39,191 nucleotides of DNA. It comes from Cytophagales bacterium. Lineage in GTDB: Bacteria > Bacteroidota > Bacteroidia > Cytophagales > Cyclobacteriaceae. The notes under the pieces are model-generated. The model was given only the letters and a program-made list of their open reading frames with translations, was not told the DNA's origin and did not search any database. The stretch spans positions 1 to 39,191 of the forward strand of contig JAKSDQ010000027.1 in the NCBI GenBank assembly GCA_022360015.1, given 5' to 3'. Made by a program: the position numbers and the translations under genes. Below, piece by piece: positions 6,856 to 35,891 of the stretch (its first letter is position 1; every line of letters begins with the position of its first letter).

Positions 6856-7962
6856 TCAAGCCAGATGCGCTAATATAAGTCTTGCTGTGGTTTGGGAGGC
6901 GCTTTGGGTTCCAAGTAATTCCCTGACTTTTTGATAACCAGTTAGTATATGTTGCCTTTTATTACCTTCCGGAAGTATTTCCCGAATGGCAATTTTTAGG
7001 TTAGTAGTTGTAAATTCATTTTGAATTAATTCTTTTACAACTTCCTCTCCCGCAATTAAATTCACCAATGAAATGTAACCCACCTTAATAAAATGCTTGG
7101 CTATATGGTAAGTAAAGTTGCTGGTTTTGTAACATACAACCTGCGGAACATTTAGTAAAGCCGTTTCCAATGTGGCGGTACCTGAGGTGACGATGGCTGC
7201 GTGAGCGTGAGCCAGCAAATCATAGGTTTGATTATATACCATGCTTACCTGCTCTGTTTTATCCAACACCGCATAAACTTCCGGTGGTAGATTGTCAACT
7301 GCGGCTACTACAAACCGGTAGTCTGGAAAATACTGAATTACGCTAAGCATTGTCTCAAGGATGTAAGCAACCTCCTGTTTTCTGCTACCAGGGAGTACGG
7401 CAATTACCGGATTGATCCCAATATTATTTTTGTCATTAAATTGCTCATTGGGTTGAAAAGCATCGATCGCATCGAGCAATGGATTACCCACATAATCCAC
7501 TTCATAATTATATCGCTGATAAAAATGCTTCTCAAAAGGTAGTATAACGAACATTCTATCGACCACCTTTTTAATTTTAAAGACCCTTTTTTGATTCCAG
7601 GCCCAGATTTTCGGGGAAATATAGTAGTATGTCCTGATCCCATTCGCTTTTCCAAATGTGGCCATACGCAAATTAAAACCGGCAAAATCAACCAGGATTA
7701 ACACATCAGGTTTGAATGCCATGAGGTCTTTTTGGCACAATTTCAGCAATCTGCGAAGCTTTGCAACGCTTTTTAGCACTTCCCAAAAACCCATTACAGC
7801 AAGGTCGCGATAGTGCATAAACACCTCCACCCCGCTGTCCTTCATGTAATCCCCACCAATGCCACGCACCTCCCGGCTCGTATCTATTTCCCGGAGGGAT
7901 TTGACAAGGTTAGCTGCATGCAAATCTCCGGACCGCTCTCCGGCGATGATGTAATACTTCAT
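6856..7962 (-). CDS. lpxB: Lipid-A-disaccharide synthase LpxB
   Basis: GT19 glycosyltransferase that joins UDP-2,3-diacylglucosamine and lipid X to make the lipid A disaccharide at the inner membrane. Family hallmarks are the N-terminal IIAGERSGDLHAANL (5-19), GIGGDYM (35-41), the middle stretch YYYISPKIWAWNQKR (about 112-126), and the C-terminal nucleotide-sugar half with VLPGSRKQEV and TSGTATLETAL. The length of 368 aa is normal. The ATG directly follows the TAG stop of the upstream queD-like gene, and the last queD codons supply GGAGGTGAG 7 bases upstream. That is an unusually strong Shine-Dalgarno for this phylum and indicates translational coupling. Confidence 0.96.
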   Translation of the reverse strand: MKYYIIAGERSGDLHAANLVKSLREIDTSREVRGIGGDYMKDSGVEVFMHYRDLAVMGFWEVLKSVAKLRRLLKLCQKDLMAFKPDVLILVDFAGFNLRMATFGKANGIRTYYYISPKIWAWNQKRVFKIKKVVDRMFVILPFEKHFYQRYNYEVDYVGNPLLDAIDAFQPNEQFNDKNNIGINPVIAVLPGSRKQEVAYILETMLSVIQYFPDYRFVVAAVDNLPPEVYAVLDKTEQVSMVYNQTYDLLAHAHAAIVTSGTATLETALLNVPQVVCYKTSNFTYHIAKHFIKVGYISLVNLIAGEEVVKELIQNEFTTTNLKIAIREILPEGNKRQHILTGYQKVRELLGTQSASQTTARLILAHLA

Positions 7963-21342: not shown

Positions 21343-22040
21343 CCTTGAAAAAATACCATCACATATTTTTTGACCTGGATCATACCCTTTGGGACTTTGA
21401 TAAAAATGCTACGGAAACGTTGATAGATCTATACCGGCAATTTGAATTAATGAGCTTCAACCTTTTTTCAGAATTCGCCCTGGTAGAAAAGTTTATGGAG
21501 GTAAACAACCACTTGTGGGATTTATACAATGTCGGAAAAATTGATAAGGTTGAAATTAGGGAAAAAAGATTTACCATTATTTTCATGGATTTAGGCCTGA
21601 CGCCGGAACAGGTTCCCCCGGATTTCGGGGAGGTTTATTTGCAGTCCTGCCCCAAAAAAACAAACATCATGCCCTACACATTAGAGATCCTTGATTATTT
21701 GCAGGAGAAATATGAATTATGCATTATAACCAATGGGTTCGACGACGTACAGGATACTAAATTAACCAGTGCCAACATCAAAAAATACTTTAAGCAAATC
21801 GTCACTCCCGAATCTGCCGGTTCGAAAAAACCACAGAAGGAAATATTTGAATACGCCCTGGGGCTTGCCAGGGCGGAGGTGAATAAAAGCATCATGGTGG
21901 GTGATAATTTGCAGACTGATATTCAGGGGGCAAGGCGTGTAAACATGGATCAAATCTTTTACAATCCAAATGATCTGTTTCACAAAGAAAAGGTAACCTA
22001 CGAAATAAACTGTCTGAGTGAAATGGTAAAGATACTATAG
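21339..22040 (+). CDS. YjjG-family HAD hydrolase (noncanonical pyrimidine nucleotidase type)
   Basis: 233 aa HAD-superfamily phosphatase. Motif I is FFDLDHTLWDF (nucleophile Asp12 and general acid Asp14), motif II is IITNGF, motif III is the lysine in GSKKPQKEIF, and motif IV is MVGDNLQTDIQGA. The cap region with HLWDLYNVGKID is like that of YjjG, which dephosphorylates nucleoside monophosphates in house-cleaning. Two TTG codons can start it: 21339, overlapping the ArsR stop as TTGA, or 21345, giving MKKYHHIFFD. The second matches relatives better and the first suggests coupling. Confidence 0.85.
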   Translation: MTLKKYHHIFFDLDHTLWDFDKNATETLIDLYRQFELMSFNLFSEFALVEKFMEVNNHLWDLYNVGKIDKVEIREKRFTIIFMDLGLTPEQVPPDFGEVYLQSCPKKTNIMPYTLEILDYLQEKYELCIITNGFDDVQDTKLTSANIKKYFKQIVTPESAGSKKPQKEIFEYALGLARAEVNKSIMVGDNLQTDIQGARRVNMDQIFYNPNDLFHKEKVTYEINCLSEMVKIL

Positions 22041-22100
22041 TGCTGACAAGCCAGGAGATCGATGGTATAGAAATTATTAAAATAAAATAGACTGTTTATT

Positions 22101-22108
22101 TAAATTTG
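22101..22108 (+). promoter_or_regulatory. Candidate -7 element upstream of pruA
   Basis: TAAATTTG fits TAnnTTTG and lies 92 bases before the pruA ATG. No good -33 element is seen at the expected distance. Confidence 0.35.
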
Positions 22109-22199
22109 CCGATGATTTTATAAAATTGCGGTCCCATTGAATATGAAGTTTTAAATATGCTCAAAGTTTAAATTAACAAGAAATAAAACCCATACTATA

Positions 22200-23831
22200 A
22201 TGCTTAAAGGATTTTTTAATGTCCCCATTCCTGAAAATGAGCCTGTAAAAAGTTATGCGCCAAATTCTGCCGAAAGAGCAGCTTTAAAATCGGCTATCGA
22301 GGAGGCAAGATCTTCAAAAGTCGATATTCCCATGTATATTGGCGGTGAAAGGGTAACTACCGGACGGAAGTTACCGCTGAATCCCCCACACGACCATCAG
22401 CATGTGCTGGGTCATTTTAGTGAAGGGGATTCGGATCATGTCAAACAGGCTATAGATGCAGCCATGGCTGCTAAGGAATCCTGGGCTGGTATGTCATGGG
22501 AACACCGGGCAAGTATATTTCTAAAGGCGGCCGAATTATTGGCGGGCCCTTACCGGTATAAAATCAACGCTGCCACCATGTTGGGGCAATCAAAGAATGC
22601 TTACCAGGCAGAAATTGATTCGGCCTGCGAGCTGATTGATTTCCTAAGGTTCAATGTGAGTTACATGGCTGAGATTTACAAGCAACAGCCGGACTCCGCC
22701 CCTGGCACCTGGAACCGGATCGAACAGCGGCCGCTGGAAGGGTTTGTGTTTGCCCTTACTCCATTTAATTTTACTGCGATTGCCGGCAACCTGCCTTCCG
22801 CACCTGCTATGATGGGCAATACCGTGGTTTGGAAACCAGCCTACCAGCAGATTTACGCCGCCAATGTGATTATGGAAGTGTTTCAACAAGCCGGCCTTCC
22901 CGATGGTGTGATTAATATGATTTACGTAGATGGCCCTGTGGCCGGGGAAGTGATCTTTAATCATCCCGACTTTGCAGGCCTGCACTTTACCGGAAGTACC
23001 AAGGTATTTCAACAATTATGGAAAACTATCGGCGAAAATATTCACAAATACAAATCCTACCCCAGGATCGTTGGAGAAACCGGAGGTAAAGACTTCATTG
23101 TGGCCCATCGATCGGCGAGTACCCGGGAAGTGGCCACTGCTATTACACGGGGCGCCTTTGAATATCAGGGGCAAAAATGTTCAGCAGCTTCAAGGGCTTA
23201 CATTCCCTCAGGCATGTGGGAGGCGTTGAAAAAACTTGTGGTAAATGATGTTAAAGATATCAATATGGGTGTCGTGGAGGACTTTTCAAACTTTTTTAAC
23301 GCAGTCATTGACAAAAAGGCCTTTGATAAGATTACAGGATATATCGACCAGGCCGGCAAAAGTGATCTGGTTGAAATACTGGCTGGCGGCAGTTATGATA
23401 AGTCATCCGGGTATTTTATCCAGCCTACCGTTTTACTAACCAAAGATCCACAATATATAACCATGTGTGAAGAGATATTTGGCCCGGTTATTACCATTTA
23501 TGTTTACCAGGAAGACCGTTTTGAGGAAACGCTGGAATTGATTGATCAGACGTCACCTTATGCCTTAACAGGCGCCTTGTTTGCTACTGACCGTTATGCC
23601 ATTGAACTGGCATCGAATAAGTTGGTAAATGCTGCCGGTAACTTCTACATCAATGACAAACCTACCGGTGCGGTCGTTGGTCAGCAGCCTTTTGGCGGGG
23701 CAAGAGGATCAGGCACCAACGATAAAGCCGGTTCAATGATCAACCTGTTGCGGTGGGTTTCGCCCAGAACTATCAAGGAAACCCTGGTTCCATCCACAGA
23801 TTTTAGATATCCTTTTATGGAAACGCAATAA
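22200..23831 (+). CDS. pruA: L-glutamate gamma-semialdehyde (P5C) dehydrogenase
   Basis: 543 aa aldehyde dehydrogenase of the ALDH4A1-like type, which oxidises P5C/glutamate semialdehyde to glutamate with NAD in proline and arginine breakdown. Catalytic residues are Cys327 (GQKCSAASRAY) and the general base Glu293 (VGETGGKDF). The NAD-binding pattern FTGST is at 263-267, and FALTPFNFTAIAGNLPSAPA (184-203) is typical. There is no proline dehydrogenase domain fused or adjacent, so this is a monofunctional enzyme like the eukaryotic form. Its last 66 bases and the following 48 bases recur at 25183-25296. Confidence 0.96.
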   Translation: MLKGFFNVPIPENEPVKSYAPNSAERAALKSAIEEARSSKVDIPMYIGGERVTTGRKLPLNPPHDHQHVLGHFSEGDSDHVKQAIDAAMAAKESWAGMSWEHRASIFLKAAELLAGPYRYKINAATMLGQSKNAYQAEIDSACELIDFLRFNVSYMAEIYKQQPDSAPGTWNRIEQRPLEGFVFALTPFNFTAIAGNLPSAPAMMGNTVVWKPAYQQIYAANVIMEVFQQAGLPDGVINMIYVDGPVAGEVIFNHPDFAGLHFTGSTKVFQQLWKTIGENIHKYKSYPRIVGETGGKDFIVAHRSASTREVATAITRGAFEYQGQKCSAASRAYIPSGMWEALKKLVVNDVKDINMGVVEDFSNFFNAVIDKKAFDKITGYIDQAGKSDLVEILAGGSYDKSSGYFIQPTVLLTKDPQYITMCEEIFGPVITIYVYQEDRFEETLELIDQTSPYALTGALFATDRYAIELASNKLVNAAGNFYINDKPTGAVVGQQPFGGARGSGTNDKAGSMINLLRWVSPRTIKETLVPSTDFRYPFMETQ

Positions 23832-23879
23832 AAATCTGAAAAACCGGAATAAACACCTGGCTGACTCAATGTATAATTG
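23766..23879. repeat. Left 114-bp direct repeat (pruA 3' end, genuine copy)
   Basis: Covers the final 22 codons of pruA, including the stop, and 48 bases beyond. The copy at 25183-25296 is identical except for two substitutions (23823 A to G, 23845 C to G), with a constant offset of 1,417. Past 23879 the two copies diverge abruptly. Confidence 0.95.
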
Positions 23880-23919
23880 AAAATCTAATCATGGGCTTTT
23901 GATGCAGGCAAGGTGAAAT
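23879..23919. repeat. Short dispersed repeat, copy A
   Basis: Starts exactly where the left direct repeat ends. It shares the core GGCTTTTGAwGCAGGC, then GGTGAAAT, with 27336-27377 at roughly 85 percent identity allowing small gaps. It lies just before the ATG of the orphan lipoprotein. Confidence 0.6.
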
Positions 23920-23923
23920 AGAT

Positions 23924-24421
23924 ATGTACGAGTTTAAAACTAATATCCATAATTACAATAAAAGGAATAACCTTTGCGCGGTTACAGCGACAAAAGGACA
24001 AATATTTTTTTGTCTGGCAGTTTTAATTAGTTCATGTTTAATGAGTTCGTGTGCGCGTCCTCTTTTCATGATAAATGCCAGTGATCAGAAATTGCTACTT
24101 TTTAAGGACAAGTCAGTAGTAGATAGTATTGCTCTATTTACAAATAGTCATTTAGAATACAAATTATTAGGGAGTACGCTCTATTATACGGATAATTTGG
24201 TCACGCCAGGTCGGTTAAACCTAAACTTGTATAAAGTAGAAATCGAGCATGATAAATTCCGGAAACCACTAGTAAGCCATCTGGGTAGTTACGACATGGA
24301 TTATTGGTTGCTAGAAAGAATTAAGATTAAAAACAATGAAGTTCTTCTTAAAGTTACTCAAGTCGGGGAAGGGCTCACCACAACCAAAAAGTTCTCGCTT
24401 GATTCGTTGTTTCAAAAATAA
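23924..24421 (+). CDS. Orphan putative lipoprotein
   Basis: 165 aa, not recognised. A polar N-terminal stretch of about 25 residues precedes a hydrophobic segment (27-40) ending in LMSSC, a plausible lipobox with Cys43. The mature part is beta-prone (LLLFKDKSVVDSIALF, LYYTDNL, LNLYKVEIEHD). No earlier or later start codon gives a shorter signal, so the long N-region is odd. It lies inside the segment bounded by the pruA repeats and has no visible partner on its strand. Confidence 0.55.
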   Translation: MYEFKTNIHNYNKRNNLCAVTATKGQIFFCLAVLISSCLMSSCARPLFMINASDQKLLLFKDKSVVDSIALFTNSHLEYKLLGSTLYYTDNLVTPGRLNLNLYKVEIEHDKFRKPLVSHLGSYDMDYWLLERIKIKNNEVLLKVTQVGEGLTTTKKFSLDSLFQK

Positions 24422-24452
24422 TTCTTTGACCGGTTGTTGATGCGTTATTCTC

Positions 24453-24710
24453 TCACTCAGCGCTATTCGCAGGCCACGTTGAGAAAAAGAGAAGAGGCAA
24501 TAAACTGCTTCTTTTTATTTTTTTGAAGAAAAAAGGAAACAAATGATCAGATTTATGCACATTCCGGCTTTTTGGCAGCGTGAGACTTACAGGAGGTAAT
24601 GCATCGTTAGAAAACCAGGCATCATCATAATGAAATTCATAACTTTTAAGGTTATTTTGTGTCAAAATTCCTGCTAACAGCCCATTATGGTAGACTTTTG
24701 CACTGCGCAT
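24453..24710 (-). pseudogene. hipS: Truncated HipS (HipA N-terminal subdomain) remnant
   Basis: The first 60 codons encode the HipA N-terminal subdomain: MRSAKVYHNGLLAGILTQNN, then YHFDD-like YEFHYDDAWF, PPVSLTLPKS and HLFPFFF. In Bacteroidota HipS-type proteins I expect a Met-Leu-Ser-Glu-Gly stretch after FPFFF. Here the frame turns into an unrelated Lys- and Ser-rich tail from about 24527 down to the stop. The gene is therefore cut off after roughly half of the domain and no HipT kinase follows. It begins 3 bases after the stop of the hipB remnant, the normal layout of a hipBST operon. Confidence 0.7.
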
Positions 24711-24713
24711 TTA

Positions 24714-24930
24714 TCAAAACTCCGGTTGTTTAACTTGCCATTTCAGCTCTATACCCAACACCTTAGTTAGCTTGGTCAGCGTTTCGAATGTTGGGTTACT
24801 TTTACCACTTTCTAATGCTTTCAGAGTTTGTAACCCTACATCTGATAGATAGCTCAGCAAGATGTTCCTGCGTTCTTCCTAAAAGCTCACGTCTCTTTTT
24901 GAGGGTTTCAACTAATTCTTGCAGGTGCAC
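24714..24930 (-). pseudogene. hipB: Frameshifted HipB-type HTH antitoxin
   Basis: Read on the minus strand from GTG at 24930, frame one gives HLQELVETLKKRRELLGRTQ then EHLAELS, and another frame continues SDVGLQTLKALESGKSNPTF and ETLTKLTKVLGIELKW to a TGA at 24714. Together they form a 70-aa Xre/HipB helix-turn-helix protein. The two parts are separated by a 4-base tandem duplication (GATAGATA on the plus strand, 24844-24851). Removing one GATA restores an uninterrupted frame. As written, no functional antitoxin is made unless slippage occurs. Confidence 0.8.
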
Positions 24931-25182
24931 TATATGGCTCTTTTTATTGCAAAGTCAGACAATAAATCTTATTTTCCACCAAAAAGAACATTAAATTTCA
25001 CTTTTTAGATCCAACCAAAACGAAAGGGAAAACATCATTCTTAACATTCTCAAAATCAAAATTTTAACAACCCTAATCCCTGAAAATAAAATCAATAATT
25101 ACCTCCAATGATGTAGTGTGCCTGAAAAATTTTAACTGATTGATAGTCAGATTTTTAAATCAAAATCGTGTCAAACTCGGGA
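24931..25182. other. Non-coding right part of the repeat-bounded segment
   Basis: About 250 AT-rich bases upstream of the hipB remnant with no gene, RNA or clear promoter. It ends abruptly at the right pruA repeat. Confidence 0.6.
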
Positions 25183-25296
25183 AGAACTATCAAGGAAACC
25201 CTGGTTCCATCCACAGATTTTAGATATCCTTTTATGGAAGCGCAATAAAAATCTGAAAAACGGGAATAAACACCTGGCTGACTCAATGTATAATTG
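25183..25296. repeat. Right 114-bp direct repeat (displaced pruA 3' end)
   Basis: A copy of 23766-23879 with two mismatches, detached from the pruA reading frame. Unlike the left copy it continues into the full second arm of the hairpin at 25278-25306, so this is the side that retains the original downstream flank. Confidence 0.95.
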
Positions 25297-25306
25297 GGTG
25301 AGTCAG
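25278..25306. terminator. Hairpin, likely original pruA terminator
   Basis: cTGACTCA (25278-25285) and TGAGTCAg (25299-25306) make an 8-bp perfect stem with a 13-base loop. The T run is poor on both strands. In the left repeat the same first arm exists, but the second arm has been replaced by the inserted segment. Confidence 0.45.
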
Positions 25307-25328
25307 GGTCTTATGACACACTTCCAGG

Positions 25329-26870
25329 TTATTGGAGTTTGTTTTCCAAAATAATAAATGACAAGCCGCTCTCCATCCATTTTTTAACATAACCTTTGGT
25401 GTCAGGCACCACCTCAAAAGCCAGTGCTCCTAACACCAAATCTTCATCTCCATCATTATCCCAATCAGCGTGGTCCATCACAATCCACCTTCCTCGTGAG
25501 GGGTCTTTGAAAGTAGAAGCTTCGAATTTTCCATCTCCTTTGTTTTCAAGATAAACAAAGCTTTCATCCGGTGTTTTTTCAAAATCCGGAAAAAAGGATA
25601 TAGAGGCAATATCAATATCCCCATCCTGATCAAAGTCCAGGGGTATGGCATTATAGGCACCATTCTGATGCCAAAAGAACACTTCTTCGAATTGATTCGC
25701 GCCATTGTTCCGATAGATTCTGATGCCATGATAAGGTTTCATTAGCGGCGGGTAGTCCGCGTTGTCCCCGGCTGTATGAATGATATCGTCAAAACCATCC
25801 TCATTGTAATCAAAAAAATTGAAATAGCTCGATCCATAGCTGGGGGGAAAGCGCAGTAAGGCCTCTTCCCTGAACACGCCATTGCCCTGATTATAATAGG
25901 CAAATATGCCCTCATCGCCCTGACCAAAAAGGGCAATTATATCAGGAAGGCCATTGTTGTCAAAATCTTTTATATATGCCTTTATGGGTCCGGGGCGGGT
26001 GCTCAGTAAATGCGAGATGTACTTTCTGTCAGGCGTTTTTTCCCGCCAGGTCAACCGGCCGGTCCACTTTGCAAATTCACAAATGACAATATCCTCCAAA
26101 CCGTCCTGATTGAGATCCCCAAATGATGAATGTACAGGCCTTCTCAGTTGGCTGATTATTTTCCGGGCTTTCCCTTTCCCCTCTTTCGGCAACTCCATCA
26201 AAAAGCCCGAAGGGGCATCTGTAGGGGAAAAGGATCCCATCACGGTAATAAACAGGCTTTTTTCTCTATTATTAAGCCATACTGCCCCCTCTTTTGTATT
26301 GGCAACATTGGGTAGTTGAAGCTTTCTATTAAACTGATAAAGTTTTTGAGAATGCGCATCAGCGATGTAAAGGCCATCTCCGGCAAAGGCAACACAGGTA
26401 GTGCCCGGGGGTGAAAGCCTGTAGGGTGTCTCCACTACTTCAAACAGTTTCAACCCTGTACGGATCTCATCACTGATAATTTCCAGACTATCCGGCGCGT
26501 GGGACAAATAGTAATGCTGAATTTTCACCCATATGCTATCCGGCAGCAATTGATGTGGCGGAAATGTATTGGCCTTTTTTACCATTTCACCACTAGCCCC
26601 CCGGCCAATCAGCTTCATTCTGACACTGTCATGAGGGTAAATCCCATACATATAACCCATCCTCGGAAGTACGTGCTTCTTCCAGGTAGATTTATCGAGC
26701 AGGGACGGTTCAGGATAGCTATGACAGTTAGTACAGTAGGCTTTGGCTAAACTCCGGGCACTTCTTTCCAAATCCTGGGACGCAGGCGGTTCGTTTTTCC
26801 CCTTTTCTCTTGAACAACCTGTCGAAATAAATACCAAACAAATAACCGCTAACCAAAATCTCATTCCCAA
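25329..26870 (-). CDS. Heme-c containing FG-GAP repeat lipoprotein
   Basis: 513 aa. The lipobox STGC gives Cys19. A single CxxCH heme-attachment motif lies in AYCTNCHSYPEP (Cys46, Cys49, His50), followed by a cytochrome-like helical stretch to about residue 130 with a candidate Met ligand in LPRMGYMYG. The rest is a beta-propeller-like FG-GAP region with calcium-binding blocks DLNQDGLEDI, DFDNNGLPDI, DYNEDGFDDI, DFDQDGDIDI and DWDNDGDEDL. The combination suggests a membrane-anchored surface or periplasmic redox protein. The partner is unknown. It is alone on the minus strand between the pruA repeat and a small membrane protein. Confidence 0.85.
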   Translation of the reverse strand: MGMRFWLAVICLVFISTGCSREKGKNEPPASQDLERSARSLAKAYCTNCHSYPEPSLLDKSTWKKHVLPRMGYMYGIYPHDSVRMKLIGRGASGEMVKKANTFPPHQLLPDSIWVKIQHYYLSHAPDSLEIISDEIRTGLKLFEVVETPYRLSPPGTTCVAFAGDGLYIADAHSQKLYQFNRKLQLPNVANTKEGAVWLNNREKSLFITVMGSFSPTDAPSGFLMELPKEGKGKARKIISQLRRPVHSSFGDLNQDGLEDIVICEFAKWTGRLTWREKTPDRKYISHLLSTRPGPIKAYIKDFDNNGLPDIIALFGQGDEGIFAYYNQGNGVFREEALLRFPPSYGSSYFNFFDYNEDGFDDIIHTAGDNADYPPLMKPYHGIRIYRNNGANQFEEVFFWHQNGAYNAIPLDFDQDGDIDIASISFFPDFEKTPDESFVYLENKGDGKFEASTFKDPSRGRWIVMDHADWDNDGDEDLVLGALAFEVVPDTKGYVKKWMESGLSFIILENKLQ

Positions 26871-26975
26871 AATCTATGTTAACACAAACAATGATACAGC
26901 TTACTTGCGGAAATAAGGTTAAGCCAAGGTTAAAGTTTTATTAAGTTGAAGTCAACAGACAACGAAAAATTCCAA

Positions 26976-27200
26976 TCAACCTATTAACGAAGTCTTTCCC
27001 TTATCAAATTTGCCCAAACCCGGTAGCGGGTGCATATCCTCCTCTTCAAATTCCCTGATTGCTGCCTCCCAAAACCTGGGATCATCGCTCTCCAGCTTGC
27101 TAAATTCGTCGTTTACCAGCCAGGCTCCATAACACAACATAAATATCAATGAGCCCAGCAGACCAACAACTATCCGCTTTAACAATCGTTTATTCATCAT
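26976..27200 (-). CDS. Small single-span membrane protein, possible SGNH-hydrolase stub
   Basis: 74 aa. Basic N-terminus, then one hydrophobic segment (about 9-28). The sequence DDPRFWEAAIREFEEED resembles the lead-in of secreted SGNH/GDSL hydrolases, where it normally precedes a Pro-rich turn and the Gly-x-Ser-Ser nucleophile block. Here the frame ends shortly afterwards, without that block, and I see no continuation in other frames. It is either a truncated remnant or an independent small protein. Confidence 0.5.
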   Translation of the reverse strand: MMNKRLLKRIVVGLLGSLIFMLCYGAWLVNDEFSKLESDDPRFWEAAIREFEEEDMHPLPGLGKFDKGKTSLIG

Positions 27201-27248
27201 TTACATTTCGGTGAATACTATTGAATAGAACCTATTTAATCAGGCACC

Positions 27249-27262
27249 GATTTTATAAAATC
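27249..27262. promoter_or_regulatory. 14-bp palindrome in a divergent gap
   Basis: GATTTTATAAAATC is a perfect palindrome between the divergent genes at 27200 and 27469. It is an operator candidate on position only. Confidence 0.25.
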
Positions 27263-27335
27263 CGACAGCTATTTCAAAAAGTGTTAAAAATTATGCTAAA
27301 GTTATTTTTTTTTATATGAGAAAAATGTATTATAT

Positions 27336-27377
27336 GAAAATTTCAAATCATTGGCTTTTGAAGCAGGCAGGTGAAAT
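27336..27377. repeat. Short dispersed repeat, copy B
   Basis: Similar to 23879-23919 (see copy A). It lies about 90 bases before the ELWxxDGT gene, so in both places the element precedes an exported-protein gene on the same strand. Confidence 0.6.
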
Positions 27378-27468
27378 GCACTGGTCGAAAAGCTGATCAG
27401 GAATCAGGGAAAAGCATAAATCCGGGCCTAAGATCACAATTTATAGGGAAACAAACAATCACTTCACC

Positions 27469-28737
27469 ATGAATAAGCAATTATGGTTTTTGCCCCTGTT
27501 ACTTAGTATGTTTTTCAACAGGTTAAGTGCACAGATACAGGTAACTGATTTATTATCTAAAGACTCGGACAAAAATTCCATGCCAAGAAATTTCGTTCAA
27601 TTTAATAATCTGCTTTTCTTTGAAGCAATCACCGAAAGTTATGGCAAGGAAATATGGGTAAGTGATGGTACAGTTGACAATACCAGACTGCTAAAAGATA
27701 TTTACCCGGGGAAGAGCAGCGGTATCACTACCGTCTTTTCGCAAAGTTCTGTAACATTTAATGATAAGCTTTTTTTTGTAGCGAATGATGGACAGAACGG
27801 AAAACAGATTTGGTCCACAGATGGAACTGAAGAAGGGACAGTACCTGTTACCGACTTACCAAAGCTCAATATGTCCAACCTGACCTTGGTAGGTGATTAT
27901 TTTTACTTTCTCTCGAAAGAGGGTTTTCTACTCCATGTCTGGAAGAGTGATGGAACCAGCGAAGGAACTATTGTAGTAAAAGGGGATCTGCCTATCCGGA
28001 ATTATCCAAGTTTTGAAGGTGCCGCCAACGGTCTGTTTTTCTTCACATTTCAGCCAGAAGAAACCAATCAATCCAGGGTTTGGAGAAGTGACGGTACCGA
28101 ATCAGGCACCTTTCCGGTCACGCAAGAAGTTGACGGGAATGGTGCAGGGCCAACGGGGACATCCTCCCTGACACAGTATATCGAATTCAACAATGATTTA
28201 TACTTTGTGGTCAAAAGTTCATCAATATTTCCCTTTCCTACCACGGTGGGTATTATGAAAACCGACGGCTCCCCGGAAAATACCGTTCCGGTAAAAGCAG
28301 TACATGAAGGCAACTGGGAATTAGTCGATTTTGCTGATGTCATTGAAATTAATAATAAGTTATATTTTTCATTTTTCCTGACGGACTACCGGCGCTTATT
28401 CATATGGGAATCAGATGGAACGGAAAACGGCACCAAAAAAATCTATGATGTGAGTGGCCCAAAATATTATGTGCCTTCCAATCTGGCTACAAATGGAACT
28501 GATTTGATCTTTACCGGTAAAAGCAACAACGATGAAACCGCCCTCTTGAAATTAAATCCTGAAAACTATCAGGTGGAGGAAATCAAAGAGTTAATTACAA
28601 ACGTAAACCAACCTTTTTTTACTCGTCATTTCAACATCAATCTCATCAGCAAGATCACAGACAACTCATTTTATATTGCTCCTCCAACAAGTGGTGCAAC
28701 AGCCACGTCCGCTGGCGCCAGGTTAAGCATGAGGTGA
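27469..28737 (+). CDS. Secreted ELWxxDGT-repeat beta-propeller protein, possibly truncated
   Basis: 422 aa. Signal peptide 1-21 (cleavage near LSAQ/I). At least six repeats of the ELWxxDGT type are visible: EIWVSDGTVDNT, QIWSTDGTEEGT, HVWKSDGTSEGT, RVWRSDGTESGT, GIMKTDGSPENT and FIWESDGTENGT, spaced about 45-65 residues, as expected for propeller blades. Family members in Bacteroidota are usually exported and often end in a type IX secretion C-terminal domain. None is seen here: the protein stops in a short Ala/Thr/Ser-rich tail, PTSGATATSAGARLSMR, whose DNA is locally GC-richer. The ligand is unknown. Confidence 0.8.
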   Translation: MNKQLWFLPLLLSMFFNRLSAQIQVTDLLSKDSDKNSMPRNFVQFNNLLFFEAITESYGKEIWVSDGTVDNTRLLKDIYPGKSSGITTVFSQSSVTFNDKLFFVANDGQNGKQIWSTDGTEEGTVPVTDLPKLNMSNLTLVGDYFYFLSKEGFLLHVWKSDGTSEGTIVVKGDLPIRNYPSFEGAANGLFFFTFQPEETNQSRVWRSDGTESGTFPVTQEVDGNGAGPTGTSSLTQYIEFNNDLYFVVKSSSIFPFPTTVGIMKTDGSPENTVPVKAVHEGNWELVDFADVIEINNKLYFSFFLTDYRRLFIWESDGTENGTKKIYDVSGPKYYVPSNLATNGTDLIFTGKSNNDETALLKLNPENYQVEEIKELITNVNQPFFTRHFNINLISKITDNSFYIAPPTSGATATSAGARLSMR

Positions 28738-28999
28738 TATGAAAGAGCAAATTAATTGCTTCATTTCCAATAAATTACAATCTTATAAATACCCATTTTT
28801 AGGGGTTGACAGTTGTTTAGTTTTTTAGTAAATTAATATTTTCTTTTCTGACATTGGCAGGAATATAAAAAATGGGATAACCTACTATTAAACGACCAGT
28901 CCGACCACCAGCTTACTTCGAAAAGAAGAAGTCAATCCTTTTGTCTGTTTATTAAAAAACACAATCTACCAAATTGTTCAACTCTAACTAAATAAGCTT

Positions 29000-31246
29000 A
29001 TGGAAACCACGAAAGAAAAACTATCCCCACACGAATTGGATGAATTTGACTTTGAGGAACAGCTAGATATCCAGGAAACCGATGCCGAATACATACAAGA
29101 AACGGCTTCACTATTTCCAGGGCTATTGCAGGTAAGCGGTTTATATACCTGGTCTTACAAAATCGCTCTCAAAAATCCATTTCCCTACGCTAAACCGGAT
29201 GGATTAGAGGAGTCAGAGATACAACCTATCGGGTTTTGGAGGAAAAGAAAGGAAGCACTCAGGATAGATCTCGATGGGAAATATCCACAAAATACGATAA
29301 GTGGGACCATAAAGATCGGGCTAAACCTTCGGTCACATTGGATAGCAAGTGTGAAATACCAGGGATCATCCAAATGGGCTGGCACTATCTGGTACAAATC
29401 GGGCCATGCTGCCTTACTCCCTCACACTGGCATTAAGATGAAGGTAATCCGATCACTGTACCCGGGCCAACGCCTGGCAATCGTCAAGTTCGGTGGCGGC
29501 GGTGCCACGAGCCGCACTATGATCTATCGATGGAAAAGTAAATATTTTCGCAATGTCCAATTCGAGTTTGATGTGGCAAGCGGAACTTCGGCAGTGACAC
29601 ATATTGAAACTGACGCACATCCAAATCGCCCTGCCTCTTTGCCTGCGGAAAAATTAACCATCCAAAAAGTATTTCGAAGTACCGGTTTTAAAGTTTCGAC
29701 AACAAAAGACAGTTCGATAATACCACTCAGCGGGTCAGGGCCCAATGCGCGGTGGAGTGATATGGAAATGCACGATGCCATGCAGACCTATTGGTCAAGA
29801 TTTTCCAACAGACCTCAGTGGTCATTGTGGACATTCTTTGCCGGTCTGCATGAGCAAGGACCTTCGCTGGGCGGGATCATGTTTGATGATATTGGTCCAA
29901 ACCATCGTCAGGGAACTGCTGTTTTCAATGATTCGTTCATCAAAAATCCTCCTCACAGTGACCCTAAACCGGCAGCCTGGGTTAATCGTATGAAATTCTG
30001 GACAACCTGCCACGAAATGGGCCATGCCTTCAACCTGGCACATTCCTGGCAGAAATCCTTGGTTTTTGGCGGAAAAGGTCCCTGGATACCCCTGGATAAT
30101 GAACCTGAGGCGCGTAGTTTTATGAATTATCCTTTCAGCGTTGCAGGCGGGCAGTCAGCATTTTTCAAAGATTTTGAATATAGATTCAGTGATGACGAGC
30201 TACTCTTTTTGCGTCACGCACCAGAGCAGTTCGTGCAAATGGGAAATGCGGACTGGTTTGATGATCATGGGTTCAACCAGGCAAATGTTTACCCTGAACA
30301 AAGCTTTAAACTGGAAGCACGCCTGCACCGAGATATCGACCATTTTGAGTTTATGGAACCGGTTAAGATCGAGCTGAAACTGGTTAACATGACCGGCCAG
30401 CCAAAATTGCTGGGTATCTCAACACTCTCAGACAGTGAACATTTAACCGTAATTATCAAAGGAAAAGGAAAACCTGCAAGACAATGGCACCCTTACACTC
30501 AAAAATGCCTGGAAAACCCGCTCAGGCAGTTGGTTCCCGAAGAGGCAATGTATAGCTCTTTGCGTATAGCATCAGGTCTGAATGGCTGGGATCTGGCAGA
30601 GCCAGGGGTCTATGAGGTTCAGGTAGCTATAAACATTGAAGGGGAAGATATAATCTCCAATGTATTGAATGTGAAAATTGCCCCACCAAAAAGCTATGAA
30701 GAAGAGCTCGTAGCTCAGGATTTCTTTTCTGAAGATGTAGGAAGGATCCTTGCCTTCAATGGAAGCATGTTCCTTGAAAAAGGTAATGACGTATTGCGGC
30801 AGGTTGTGGACCAGTTTGGAAAAAACCGGGTTTCATGCCATGCCTCCATTGCGCTAAACATGCCTTTGGCCAAAGGATACAAATATTTAGACATTCCGGA
30901 GGGCGAATCTTTATATGCTTCGGCACAGGATGCAAATGCGTCAATCAAAGTGGCCGAACCAAAAGTAGACGAAGCCCGAAAGGAACTGATGAAAGTTTTA
31001 ATATCCAACAAAAACAATGCGGTAGATACCTTTGGGCATATTGACTATGGAGACCAGGTTAAAATGCTAAGCCAGTTTCTTTACGCCGATGGCGATGCCA
31101 GGAGTGCGGAAGAATGTATGAAAAATGCTCATGATGTGCTGAAGTCACGTAATGTACTTGATTCGGTGCTTGAAGAATTTCAACATGAAAGGAGACAATA
31201 TTCTGAAAACAAATCCGGTTCCAAAACGGCCACAGTAGAAGATTAG
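29000..31246 (+). CDS. Metzincin-like zinc metallopeptidase without signal peptide
   Basis: 748 aa. The zinc motif HEMGHAFNLAH places His338, Glu339, His342 and His348 in the HExxHxxxxxH arrangement, with Asn345 where metzincins usually have Gly. A Met-turn candidate SFMNYP (Met375) follows at suitable distance. Upstream, residues 220-330 hold a probable catalytic-domain start (KVFRSTGFKVSTT). About 430-640 is beta-rich, like an accessory domain (FKLEARLHRDIDHFEFMEPV), and the last 100 residues are helical, TPR-like. The N-terminus is acidic (METTKEKLSPHELDEFDFEE) with no signal peptide or membrane span, so either it is cytoplasmic or it leaves by a leaderless route. The lipoprotein at 31336 probably follows on the same transcript. 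Confidence 0.75.
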   Translation: METTKEKLSPHELDEFDFEEQLDIQETDAEYIQETASLFPGLLQVSGLYTWSYKIALKNPFPYAKPDGLEESEIQPIGFWRKRKEALRIDLDGKYPQNTISGTIKIGLNLRSHWIASVKYQGSSKWAGTIWYKSGHAALLPHTGIKMKVIRSLYPGQRLAIVKFGGGGATSRTMIYRWKSKYFRNVQFEFDVASGTSAVTHIETDAHPNRPASLPAEKLTIQKVFRSTGFKVSTTKDSSIIPLSGSGPNARWSDMEMHDAMQTYWSRFSNRPQWSLWTFFAGLHEQGPSLGGIMFDDIGPNHRQGTAVFNDSFIKNPPHSDPKPAAWVNRMKFWTTCHEMGHAFNLAHSWQKSLVFGGKGPWIPLDNEPEARSFMNYPFSVAGGQSAFFKDFEYRFSDDELLFLRHAPEQFVQMGNADWFDDHGFNQANVYPEQSFKLEARLHRDIDHFEFMEPVKIELKLVNMTGQPKLLGISTLSDSEHLTVIIKGKGKPARQWHPYTQKCLENPLRQLVPEEAMYSSLRIASGLNGWDLAEPGVYEVQVAINIEGEDIISNVLNVKIAPPKSYEEELVAQDFFSEDVGRILAFNGSMFLEKGNDVLRQVVDQFGKNRVSCHASIALNMPLAKGYKYLDIPEGESLYASAQDANASIKVAEPKVDEARKELMKVLISNKNNAVDTFGHIDYGDQVKMLSQFLYADGDARSAEECMKNAHDVLKSRNVLDSVLEEFQHERRQYSENKSGSKTATVED

Positions 31247-31335: not shown

Positions 31336-31749
31336 ATGAAGTTCAAATGGATGAAATGGCATTACATTGTACTATCTTTTTCATATATAATCCTAACCAA
31401 TTGCAGCACAATGGGTAATAAAACAGATAGTTCTCAATCCATTGGCCAGAAGCCTGTTTTTCATATTGCCCTCCGGGAAGGCTTCTATGAAGATGAAATT
31501 CAGGTGGAACACAATGGGCAAATCGTATATCAAAAAAACAAAGTTACCAGTGATGTAAGAATTGGTTTGGCAGATTCCTTCGAAATTCCACAACAAGAAG
31601 GGCCTGATATACTTTATTTTATGATCCCTGAAAAAGGTATAAAACAACGGATTACATTTCAGTTTTCGTTTACGGTTTACATGGCAGTATCCTACATCGA
31701 TGATGAACTGCGGCTTACAGTCTCTGATGCGCCCTTTGGTTACATGTAA
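31336..31749 (+). CDS. Small putative lipoprotein downstream of the metzincin
   Basis: 137 aa from the ATG at 31336 (MKFKWMKWHYIVLSFSYII), chosen because it yields a short basic N-region and a lipobox ILTNC. An in-frame ATG at 31300 would add 12 residues. The mature part is beta-rich (FHIALREGFYEDEIQVEHNG, ITFQFSFTVYMAVSYIDDEL) and not recognised. Its position 90 bases after the metzincin gene on the same strand suggests a shared transcript, possibly as inhibitor or anchor, but that is a guess. Confidence 0.6.
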   Translation: MKFKWMKWHYIVLSFSYIILTNCSTMGNKTDSSQSIGQKPVFHIALREGFYEDEIQVEHNGQIVYQKNKVTSDVRIGLADSFEIPQQEGPDILYFMIPEKGIKQRITFQFSFTVYMAVSYIDDELRLTVSDAPFGYM

Positions 31750-33109: not shown

Positions 33110-33143
33110 AAGACTTTAAAGGTGTATCAAATTGTGTATTAAA

Positions 33144-33180
33144 CAAAAAAGCCACCCACAATTTTAATCTTGTAAGTGGC
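33144..33180 (-). terminator. Rho-independent terminator after tRNA-Ala
   Basis: On the minus strand a 10-bp stem with two G-U pairs (33180-33171 with 33158-33149) and a 12-base loop is followed by T6. It begins 12 bases after the tRNA 3' end. Confidence 0.85.
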
Positions 33181-33192
33181 TGATTATCAGCG

Positions 33193-33266
33193 TGGAGCCA
33201 ATGGGAGTCGAACCCACGACCTCTTGACTGCCAGTCAAGCGCTCTAGCCATCTGAGCTATGGCCCC
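33193..33266 (-). tRNA. tRNA-Ala (anticodon GGC)
   Basis: On the minus strand the acceptor GGGGCCA pairs with TGGCTCC, including the G3-U70 wobble that identifies alanine tRNAs. The anticodon stem cttga/tcaag closes loop ctGGCag, reading GCC/GCU. The T-loop is ggttcgactcc, the discriminator is A, and CCA is not encoded. Confidence 0.96.
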
Positions 33267-33348
33267 GTAAAATGGTAACAATTGATATAACTGATTTTTC
33301 TTTTTTCAGTTTATCAATGGGTTGGCAAATATATCCAATTTTTTCTAA

Positions 33349-33855
33349 TCAAAAAACCAGCCGGCGGGCTTTCACAAAAGCTTTTTGATAATAATTTGAA
33401 TAGAGGTTATCCTCCACCACACCACGGGAAGAGGAGGCATGAATGAATTTGATCGACTGCTTGCCTTTTATTTCAGTGACCAGGCCCGCATGGGAAACTT
33501 TTCGCCTGCGCTTTTTGGTGGCAAAAAAAACCAGATCCCCGGGCCGCAATTGCTGCATGCGTACTGCTTTCCCGATCTTACTTTGCTCTTTGGCACTTCT
33601 GGGTAGGGAGATATTGGCGGATTTGAAAGAAATTAACAGGAGGCCTGAACAATCCATACCCCTCTGGCTGGTGCCTCCGTAACGGTAGGGGGTACCTACA
33701 AAGGTTCGGGAAGTATTGATGATCTTATTGATTTTTTGTTGTCTGGCTGTTAGCTTTTTGCCGGAAGAACAACTGGTAAAAACAAGCAAAACAAAAACCG
33801 CCAGGTAAAAGAGGTAAAAGGGTCTATTGATGAAGGAGGACTTTACTGACACCAT
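33349..33855 (-). CDS. NlpC/P60 family cell-wall endopeptidase lipoprotein
   Basis: 168 aa. Signal with lipobox FTSC (Cys29). The NlpC/P60 papain-like domain spans about 45-160 with the triad Cys69 (GMDCSGLL), His122 (VSHAGLV) and His139 (FIHASS). TPYRYGG (55-61) and LRPGDLVFF (103-111) are further hallmarks. Members cleave gamma-D-glutamyl-meso-diaminopimelate bonds in peptidoglycan. Here the protein is anchored to a membrane and consists of little beyond the catalytic domain. It is upstream of tRNA-Ala on the same strand and divergent from asnB. Confidence 0.93.
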   Translation of the reverse strand: MVSVKSSFINRPFYLFYLAVFVLLVFTSCSSGKKLTARQQKINKIINTSRTFVGTPYRYGGTSQRGMDCSGLLLISFKSANISLPRSAKEQSKIGKAVRMQQLRPGDLVFFATKKRRRKVSHAGLVTEIKGKQSIKFIHASSSRGVVEDNLYSNYYQKAFVKARRLVF

Positions 33856-33989
33856 GTATCTTTTAGTTAAACATATAGTTAACGAACAATGATGTGGTTA
33901 AATATAACTTAATTCAATAAATGTATGGTTTAATTAAGAAAATTAATTAATTAACAGCCCGAATTTTAACATTTTTGTGAAGCAACAGT

Positions 33990-35891
33990 ATGTGTGGTAT
34001 CACCGGAATATATGCATTTAATGAAGTTGGCAGGTTTAATATGATCAACCTTGCCCGTGCTACGGCGGTTTTGGAAAAAAGAGGGCCGGATCACCAGGGC
34101 ATGTATACGGAATATTTTGTAGGCCTGGGACATCGAAGGTTATCGATTATTGACACTTCGGCAGACGGCAACCAACCTATGAAAGATGAAACAGGGCGGT
34201 TTACGATTGTTTTTAACGGAGAAATCTATAACTATAAAAGGCTCCGGAAAGATTTGATCAGCCAGGGTGTCTGTTTTAAATCAGACTCTGACACAGAGGT
34301 ACTACTCAACCTCTATATTCGTGAGAAAGAACAGTGCCTTAACAAACTGAATGGTTTTTTTGCCTTCGCCATTTATGACAAAGAAGATAACTCGATATTT
34401 CTGGCCAGGGATCGTATTGGCATTAAACCTTTGCTCTATTACCAGGACGAGGATAAGATTATATTCGCCTCCGAGATGAAGTCGCTGCTTGCCTATGGTA
34501 TTGAAAAGTCGGTAGATTATACTTCTTTATACCAGTATTTACAATTCAACTATATACCTGCACCCAGCACTATTTTAAATGGTGTGAAAAAACTGATGCC
34601 GGGTCACTTTCTGAAAATTAAAAACAGGGAAGTTAAAATCAGCAGGTATTATCACATCCCTTATCACAAAAGCCATCTCAATCCTGATAACCTCAACTAC
34701 GAGCAGCAAAAAGCGAGGTTAATAGAGTTACTGGAAGAATCGGTGAAAGAAAGGTTGGTAGCTGACGTTCCACTCGGGGCATTTTTAAGTGGTGGTATCG
34801 ACTCATCCGTCATTACGGCCCTGGCGACCAGGCACAGGGATCAACTCAACACTTTTTCGATTGGCTACCGCGATGAACCCTTCTTTGATGAAACCAAATA
34901 TGCGAACTCGGTAGCCAGAAAATTTAATACGCACCATACCGTTTTTTCCCTTTCCAACCTTGATTTATATGATCACCTGTTTGACATTCTCGATTACCTG
35001 GATGAACCATTTGCAGATTCCTCGGCTATTCCGGTCTATATTCTGAGTAAACACACCAGGAAGACAACCACGGTAGCGTTGTCAGGAGATGGGGCAGATG
35101 AGCTGTTTTCAGGATACAATAAACACCAAGCAGCATTTAAAGCCTTACAGGGAGGCACAGTTGCTTCGATGGTAAAATCATTGCTTCCCTTGTGGAATGC
35201 ATTGCCGAAATCCAGAAATAACCCTTTGACCAACAAGGTGAGACAGTTCCAAAGATTTGCCATTGGCATGAATCTGAGTGAGCGTGAGCGTTACTGGCGC
35301 TGGGCGGCATTGGCCACCGATTTTGAGGCGATGTCGATCTTAACGCTCGAGGCCAGGGAAAAAGTCAATACGGAGGAATTCAACCAACGAAAGCATAATA
35401 TTCTCACACACTTCAACGGAAAAGGCAATCTGAACGATGTGTTGTATACTGATATGCATATGGTTTTGACTAATGACATGTTAACCAAGGTAGACAGCAT
35501 GTCTATGGCCAACAGTCTTGAAGTCAGGGTCCCATTCCTGGATCACCATGTAGTCAATTATGCCTTTTCACTGCCGGAGGAATCCAAAATTAACAGCCAG
35601 ATGAAAAAACGTATTTTACAGGATGCTTTCAGGGATATTTTACCCAGGGAGCTCTACAGAAGGCCAAAGCATGGTTTTGAGGTTCCTTTGTTAAAATGGT
35701 TCAGAAACGAACTAAGATCGTTGATTGAAAATGATCTTTTGGCAGAGAATTTTATAAACAACCAGGGAGTATTCGACTACGTGGGTATCAGGGCGTTAAA
35801 GGAGCAATTGTTTTCTAAAAATCCCGGCGATGTGCATGCAAGAATCTGGGCGTTGGTTGTATTTCAATCGTGGTGGAAAAAGTATTTGTAA
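33990..35891 (+). CDS. asnB: Asparagine synthase (glutamine-hydrolysing)
   Basis: 633 aa class II amidotransferase converting aspartate, glutamine and ATP to asparagine. The N-terminal nucleophile Cys2 directly follows Met (MCGITGIYAF), so the start is certain. Glutaminase residues lie in RRLSIID (49-55), FNGEIYNY (75-82) and SDTEVLL (100-106). The ATP-PPase loop SGGIDSS is at 267-273, and the C-terminal synthetase part contains SGDGADELFSGY and MSMANSLEVRVPFLDH. The length is that of the long AsnB form. A capsule-type amidotransferase of the same family is possible, but no polysaccharide genes adjoin. Confidence 0.92.
   Translation: MCGITGIYAFNEVGRFNMINLARATAVLEKRGPDHQGMYTEYFVGLGHRRLSIIDTSADGNQPMKDETGRFTIVFNGEIYNYKRLRKDLISQGVCFKSDSDTEVLLNLYIREKEQCLNKLNGFFAFAIYDKEDNSIFLARDRIGIKPLLYYQDEDKIIFASEMKSLLAYGIEKSVDYTSLYQYLQFNYIPAPSTILNGVKKLMPGHFLKIKNREVKISRYYHIPYHKSHLNPDNLNYEQQKARLIELLEESVKERLVADVPLGAFLSGGIDSSVITALATRHRDQLNTFSIGYRDEPFFDETKYANSVARKFNTHHTVFSLSNLDLYDHLFDILDYLDEPFADSSAIPVYILSKHTRKTTTVALSGDGADELFSGYNKHQAAFKALQGGTVASMVKSLLPLWNALPKSRNNPLTNKVRQFQRFAIGMNLSERERYWRWAALATDFEAMSILTLEAREKVNTEEFNQRKHNILTHFNGKGNLNDVLYTDMHMVLTNDMLTKVDSMSMANSLEVRVPFLDHHVVNYAFSLPEESKINSQMKKRILQDAFRDILPRELYRRPKHGFEVPLLKWFRNELRSLIENDLLAENFINNQGVFDYVGIRALKEQLFSKNPGDVHARIWALVVFQSWWKKYL

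Follow-up and report, generated by a model that had tools for sequence, protein, structure and literature searches.

A degraded insert between 114-nucleotide repeats of the pruA 3' end fits illegitimate insertion with long target duplication in a Cytophagales-like genome

Some integrative elements use the 3' end of a gene as their attachment site (attB), which gives direct repeats of the gene tail around the cargo. Another kind of event, insertion with long target duplication, was reportedly treated by Nobusato et al. in 2000, as papers citing that work relate. Excerpts of one paper (PMC3874152) describe insertions of restriction-modification genes whose target duplications are "in the order of 100 bp" (base pairs), and excerpts of three others also treat this kind of insertion (PMC1643837, PMC3031569, PMC4978471). 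Excerpts of a study in E. coli report that 56 of 60 supposed homology-facilitated clones were partial duplications by polymerase chain reaction, and that the duplications, 109-950 bp long in 14 sequenced clones, were explained by a single crossover of circularised DNA (PMC3240628). Here we describe a locus of related form in the window, by which we mean the whole 39,191-nucleotide (nt) stretch analysed, one entire contig (C8) of the source genome G000, a 7.31-Mb draft in 340 contigs. A 1303-nt segment lies between the gene pruA and an FG-GAP gene, and it is bounded by 114-nt direct repeats of the pruA end (Table 1). Judged from its sequence, the structure fits the long-target-duplication kind, which is on record for the restriction-modification genes of other bacteria. 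We give a probability of about 0.55 to the reading that it is an old, immobile illegitimate insertion with long target duplication, made perhaps by template switching.

The name pruA, given in an earlier reading of the DNA made without database searches (the sequence-only reading), is putative for the intact frame on the left. The two repeat copies are identical at 112 of 114 positions. They differ at copy positions 58 (A/G) and 80 (C/G), which leaves 57 nt as the longest stretch without a difference. The first base of the repeat opens codon 523 of pruA, and the repeat takes in 21 sense codons, the stop codon and the next 48 bases. The 112 matches and the 22 codons plus 48 bases given in the sequence-only reading were confirmed. 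Since unrelated sequence precedes the right copy, it is a truncated pruA tail. An ungapped search of the window (seed 12, minimum 30 nt) found just two other repeats, both of 71-72% identity, and the 114-nt repeat is therefore not a product of chance. Direct-repeat pairs of 60-600 nt with at least 90% identity and 0.3-12 kb apart numbered 4 in 86 sources (1.55 Mb of overlapping pieces, mostly pruA neighbourhoods). Two of the four, the window pair and one other, have the 3' end of an open reading frame (ORF) inside one copy.

Comparison with relatives supported the division of the locus into old and inserted sequence. In 36 of 38 relatives pruA gave a single near full-length match of 61-87% identity; the exceptions were G007, where it falls into two contig pieces, and G035, with a weak 29% match only. 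The genus is represented in the searched set by two species, G000 and G001. The sequence-only reading had held that the same arrangement in all relatives would speak against an insertion, and G001 departs from it, having one pruA tail, no repeat and no trace of the insert. Its orthologue of the FG-GAP gene (72% at the amino acid (aa) level) lies about 9 kb beyond pruA and is equally convergent with it. The DNA blocks common to the window and G001 are pruA, 25340-26747 (the FG-GAP gene), 28787-31200, 31350-31691 and 33141-34525, with gene order kept and the intervening spaces differing. Because the FG-GAP gene follows pruA in G001 too, with neither a repeat nor an insert there, the older neighbourhood is probably pruA and the FG-GAP gene, with the right copy on the older flank and the segment between the copies as the insert. 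The base of G001 at copy position 58 is that of the right copy, an agreement at one site only. The space between the two genes in G001 (L124, contig C34, about 625200-634100) is filled by different genes, among them AraC-like, NmrA-like and BASS-like ones according to translations read by eye. The pruA/FG-GAP gap is a site of gene turnover.

The hairpin at the right copy gave the same orientation. Folding of both sites confirmed the earlier observation that only the right copy reaches its second arm: as RNA, the + strand of 25270-25325 folds at -24.1 kcal/mol (z -4.14, equalled by 0 of 200 shuffles), and the matching stretch at the left copy folds at just -7.5 kcal/mol (z 0.24). The right site does no better than shuffles when its - strand is folded (-11.8 kcal/mol, z -0.68). 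The left breakpoint falls 4 nt inside the 3' arm of the former hairpin. The sequence-only reading had described a TGACTCA/TGAGTCA hairpin serving as terminator. The hairpin itself is real and longer than noted, with 14 pairs; its role is another matter, because no T run follows the stem at 25273-25307 and the terminator scan does not list it, and we infer a terminator from the position between the convergent pruA and FG-GAP genes. Together, the gene order of G001 and a hairpin intact at the right copy only support the earlier claim that an insertion came between pruA and its former right flank.

Truncated pieces make up the insert, a mosaic that was probably acquired by horizontal transfer. 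Windows of its length with G+C as low numbered 23 of 758, those overlapping the insert included. Residues 1-33 of the ORF starting at 23924 are 67% identical to about residues 60-92 (our own count), in the N-terminal part, of a 446-aa protein encoded by the genome G008; this protein has a FokI-type cleavage domain and adjoins a Methylase_S gene. This one endonuclease gene fragment is the only restriction-modification content of the insert. The "orphan lipoprotein" that the sequence-only reading placed at 23924-24421 thus holds in part: a lipoprotein-like body is there, with LISSC read by eye as a lipobox and a signal peptide that is plausible by eye, and the first 33 or so residues are endonuclease debris. 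The body had no family, solved-structure, plasmid or viral relative, the viral contigs being searched for close relatives only. With the whole 165-aa ORF as query (expectation value (E) of 0.001 or less), matches were obtained in 4 of 390 family genomes, a draw from a larger family; the own genome is among these four, two match the endonuclease part only, and one matches residues 36-138 at 29%. A terminator-like stem with a T run stands 3' of this ORF, at 24489-24516. The toxin-antitoxin wreck reported earlier was identified as remnants of hipB and of the N-terminal part of hipA, with the frame broken in hipB and the sequence cut inside hipA, and no intact HipB antitoxin or HipA kinase. The operon on contig C150 of G000 that resembles it has intact hipB, hipA_N and hipA_C frames (L034, 5228-6858), with HipA split over two genes; from translations only, C150 seemingly also holds a DNA methylase and a reverse transcriptase of the group II-intron type that is split. 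Genome comparisons gave no match beyond 25005. No sign of present function or mobility of the insert was seen.

Table 1. Positions of the features at the pruA locus in the window
Feature	Position	Strand	Description
pruA (1-pyrroline-5-carboxylate dehydrogenase)	22200..23831	+	intact open frame, 543 aa
Left repeat	23766..23879	+	final 21 sense codons of pruA, its stop codon and 48 nt beyond
Inserted segment	23880..25182	.	1303 nt, 35.5% G+C vs 40.6% for the window
Restriction endonuclease gene remnant	23880..24010	+	23912-24010 matches coding sequence of the relative in G008, 76% aa
165-aa ORF	23924..24421	+	lipoprotein-like body that continues the frame of endonuclease debris (residues 1 to about 33)
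hipB and hipA N-terminal remnant	24523..25005	-	truncated, frame-broken; 81% DNA identity to contig C150 operon
A+T-rich filler	25006..25182	.	right end of insert
Right repeat	25183..25296	+	truncated pruA tail joined to older right flank
14-pair hairpin	25273..25307	+	intact only at right copy, strong only as + strand RNA
FG-GAP/VCBS-repeat lipoprotein-like gene	25329..26870	-	convergent with pruA; G001 orthologue also downstream of pruA
Second endonuclease debris piece	27324..27377	+	similar to 23868-23919, crossing left junction by 12 nt

Compared with the described systems, the locus is closest to insertion with long target duplication. Both have foreign DNA between target repeats of about 100 bp, and neither a transposase nor an integrase was found. 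The link of that kind to restriction-modification genes has a possible counterpart in the window, the restriction-endonuclease fragment at the left end of the insert. The locus differs in that its cargo is degraded, mosaic and without a working restriction-modification system, that its empty site is a deduced one, and that the host is Cytophagales-like and not Helicobacter. Unlike integrative elements at gene 3' ends, the window has no integrase, and no recurrence at the site was shown in relatives. With the E. coli events of homology-facilitated illegitimate recombination and single crossover it has in common a kb-scale insert, a gene-end duplication of similar order (single crossover) and junction microhomology; according to the excerpts, however, homology-facilitated events generally delete target and do not duplicate it (PMC3240628), and no donor is known for the window. 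Excerpts on the type VI secretion system clusters of Vibrio cholerae describe, as here, an old gene 3' end that remains downstream of incoming DNA, but the modules there are effector-immunity pairs, whereas the window has a housekeeping gene and debris (PMC5361080). The case documents an insertion in which no integrase is apparent, with a target duplication of about 100 nt and with endonuclease and toxin-antitoxin debris in a Cytophagales-like genome. The pattern is that proposed for restriction-modification genes in Helicobacter, and taken alone it is ordinary genome turnover.

We further investigated if other genomes carry a second pruA tail. A 34-aa pruA tail had a match in 376 of the 390 family genomes, and G000 alone showed a second tail match on its pruA contig that was both short and strong. 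The table of results, read by eye, had 11 genomes with at least two tail matches, and each was re-searched. The extra matches in G013, G023, G140, G249, G284, G288 and G386 were weak (E 0.009-0.05). Two further candidates were rejected as parallels: in G403 the two matches share 149 identical bases at contig ends, read as an assembly overlap, and in G212 there is a second long pruA-like frame of 291 aa. G314 has a lone pruA-tail fragment of about 100 bp, 87% identical to its own pruA (L125, contig C34, 190-290). The intact pruA of this genome ends 869 nt from the start of contig C94, and the fragment is also near a contig start; if the two starts adjoin, this could be a parallel case, and it was not counted as support. 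In the 29 genus-mate loci used (40 genomes searched), no convincing match to the genes right of the fragment lay 1.5 kb or less from pruA. Beyond the family, the best 80 of 586 named pruA loci were examined, with 43 to 10,000 nt of downstream sequence per locus and at least 5 kb in 55 of the 80. Among the named matches Cytophagales come closest and other Bacteroidota stand lower in the list, hence the tentative placing of the host as Cytophagales-like. None of the 80 had a second coding tail, and the extra tail matches in 6 of them all lie past the last aligned pruA codon.

The left junction offered a clue to the route of entry. The second endonuclease debris piece lies 3.5 kb downstream of this junction, in an interval (26976-28737) without a match to the compared G001 region. 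Local alignment of 23860-24059 with 25330-28737 scored 65, and the best of 300 dinucleotide shuffles scored 35. The similarity crosses the junction as about 12 nt of near-identity running into the repeat, and when 2000 control 20-mers were drawn from A+T-rich stretches in the window, one had an equally good leftward extension. This near-identity suggests microhomology at an illegitimate left junction, a kind of junction that needs no donor pruA tail. A separate candidate, the 23884-23919 motif as the end of a genome-wide element, was rejected: its exact matches in G000 are only two, both in the window, and it is endonuclease debris. Allowing up to two mismatches added one two-mismatch match in G000 and three in G001.

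In the proposed course of events, 1303 nt of already fragmented foreign DNA would have entered the short pruA/FG-GAP gap, inside the hairpin, by illegitimate recombination during replication or break repair, and the event would have duplicated 114 nt of target. Strand synthesis would have left the pruA tail at the near-identity of about 12 nt (AATGTATAATTG) and used the foreign segment as its template; it would then have re-entered pruA at a point 114 nt upstream of the exit, again in the tail. Such a return would give a whole pruA and the repeat-insert-repeat order, with no need of a donor pruA tail. Because no Ku gene was found in G000 or G001, end joining of filler is disfavoured. Template switching is favoured modestly over the other routes; that the insertion was integrase-free, illegitimate and accompanied by a long target duplication is the firmer part.

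Several observations weigh against this account. The crossing similarity is imperfect, with one mismatch and one gap; it was noticed first and tested afterwards; and among the 126 controls sharing the last two bases, one was equally good. No clear microhomology was found at the right junction. A source for the whole insert was not found elsewhere in the genome, where the hipBA part is matched at 81% only. The sequence-only reading had proposed that relatives be checked for an empty site, with pruA, the intact hairpin and the FG-GAP gene in direct order, and no true one was found among the genomes examined; G001 fits in its single tail and missing insert, yet 9 kb of other genes fill its gap. 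Should empty-site strains exist, the two junctions would reveal the capture mechanism directly. Lastly, a molecule bringing its own pruA tail gives the same repeat-insert-repeat structure. This is close to what the sequence-only reading had in mind, namely circular or imported DNA whose pruA tail rebuilt the gene, and we rate it as the leading rival, clearly less probable than template switching. DNA from a relative with pruA followed by this segment would have entered by homologous recombination in pruA and an illegitimate join, or by circularisation and a single crossover, leaving the recipient's truncated tail on the right and an intact pruA on the left. The E. coli single-crossover duplications of 109-950 bp, as excerpted (PMC3240628), are a precedent, and the difference at 2 of 114 positions fits divergence between donor and recipient, with the agreement of the right copy with G001 confined to position 58. 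However, neither the tail search of the 390 family genomes nor the 80 named loci yielded a donor arrangement, the separate G314 fragment left aside, and the similarity crossing the left junction would demand an earlier illegitimate event in the donor. No such molecule appeared among known replicons either: the insert had no match to plasmids and phages at distant sensitivity (E limit 1e-5), and no viral contig had the exact tail pattern.

Mobile-element machinery was sought for the remaining explanations. An integrase-borne element at an attachment site in the pruA 3' end, its integrase since lost, would account for gene-3'-end repeats around cargo, which resemble attL/attR, and for a site in a hairpin; the 19 tyrosine-recombinase matches in G000, 18 of them over the family cut-off, mean that such elements exist in the genome. 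But none of the 19 is on the window contig, and the insert has no integrase, as the sequence-only reading had noticed. The tblastn searches with eight integrase-like ORFs, taken from the integrase loci of G000, were empty in the window and in the 608 kb that follow pruA in the named loci (79 pieces); in the control, 14 of 19 source loci were matched by another query, a figure inflated by overlap of some loci. A screen of the named loci with an integrase active-site pattern, likewise empty, was void, as it detected 0 of 19 positive-control loci. No second tail beside pruA and no related element at the pruA 3' site was shown in the 390 family genomes or the 80 named loci, and the cargo is debris, so we regard a lost integrase as improbable. 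Paired nicks staggered by 114 nt, whose filling-in would yield a target duplication in a transposon-like manner or by end joining, would be a simple route to two initially identical copies, but with no transposase in the insert, no terminal inverted repeat of at least 12 nt at its ends and no Ku gene, we hold this to be slightly more improbable still; a transposon or insertion sequence was rejected for want of transposase and terminal inverted repeats. An Rfam search of 22000-27500 gave no match. Least credible is an assembly error: a draft in this many contigs invites the suspicion, but two sites tell the copies apart, no exact stretch longer than 57 nt is common to them, and the two flanks follow the G001 gene order.

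A bolder extension of the template-switching account, to which we give as little credence as to the lost integrase, makes the hairpin a recurrent, integrase-free capture site for defence-gene debris, where each capture would duplicate the gene tail and one would have put a lipoprotein body in frame behind an endonuclease fragment, creating a new gene with a signal peptide. The differing 9-kb cargo of G001 and the lone tail fragment near a contig end in G314 are compatible with it.

The other repeat pair with an ORF 3' end inside one copy is in a locus of Flammeovirga sp. (L171), where a 348-nt near-repeat of 94% identity occupies 5951-6298 and 7595-7941. Two toxin-like ORFs have their 5' part in it, and its second copy also contains the 3' end of an ATPase-like ORF. 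Here too a gene end may have been duplicated on either side of inserted genes, or else the locus may be a polymorphic-toxin array.

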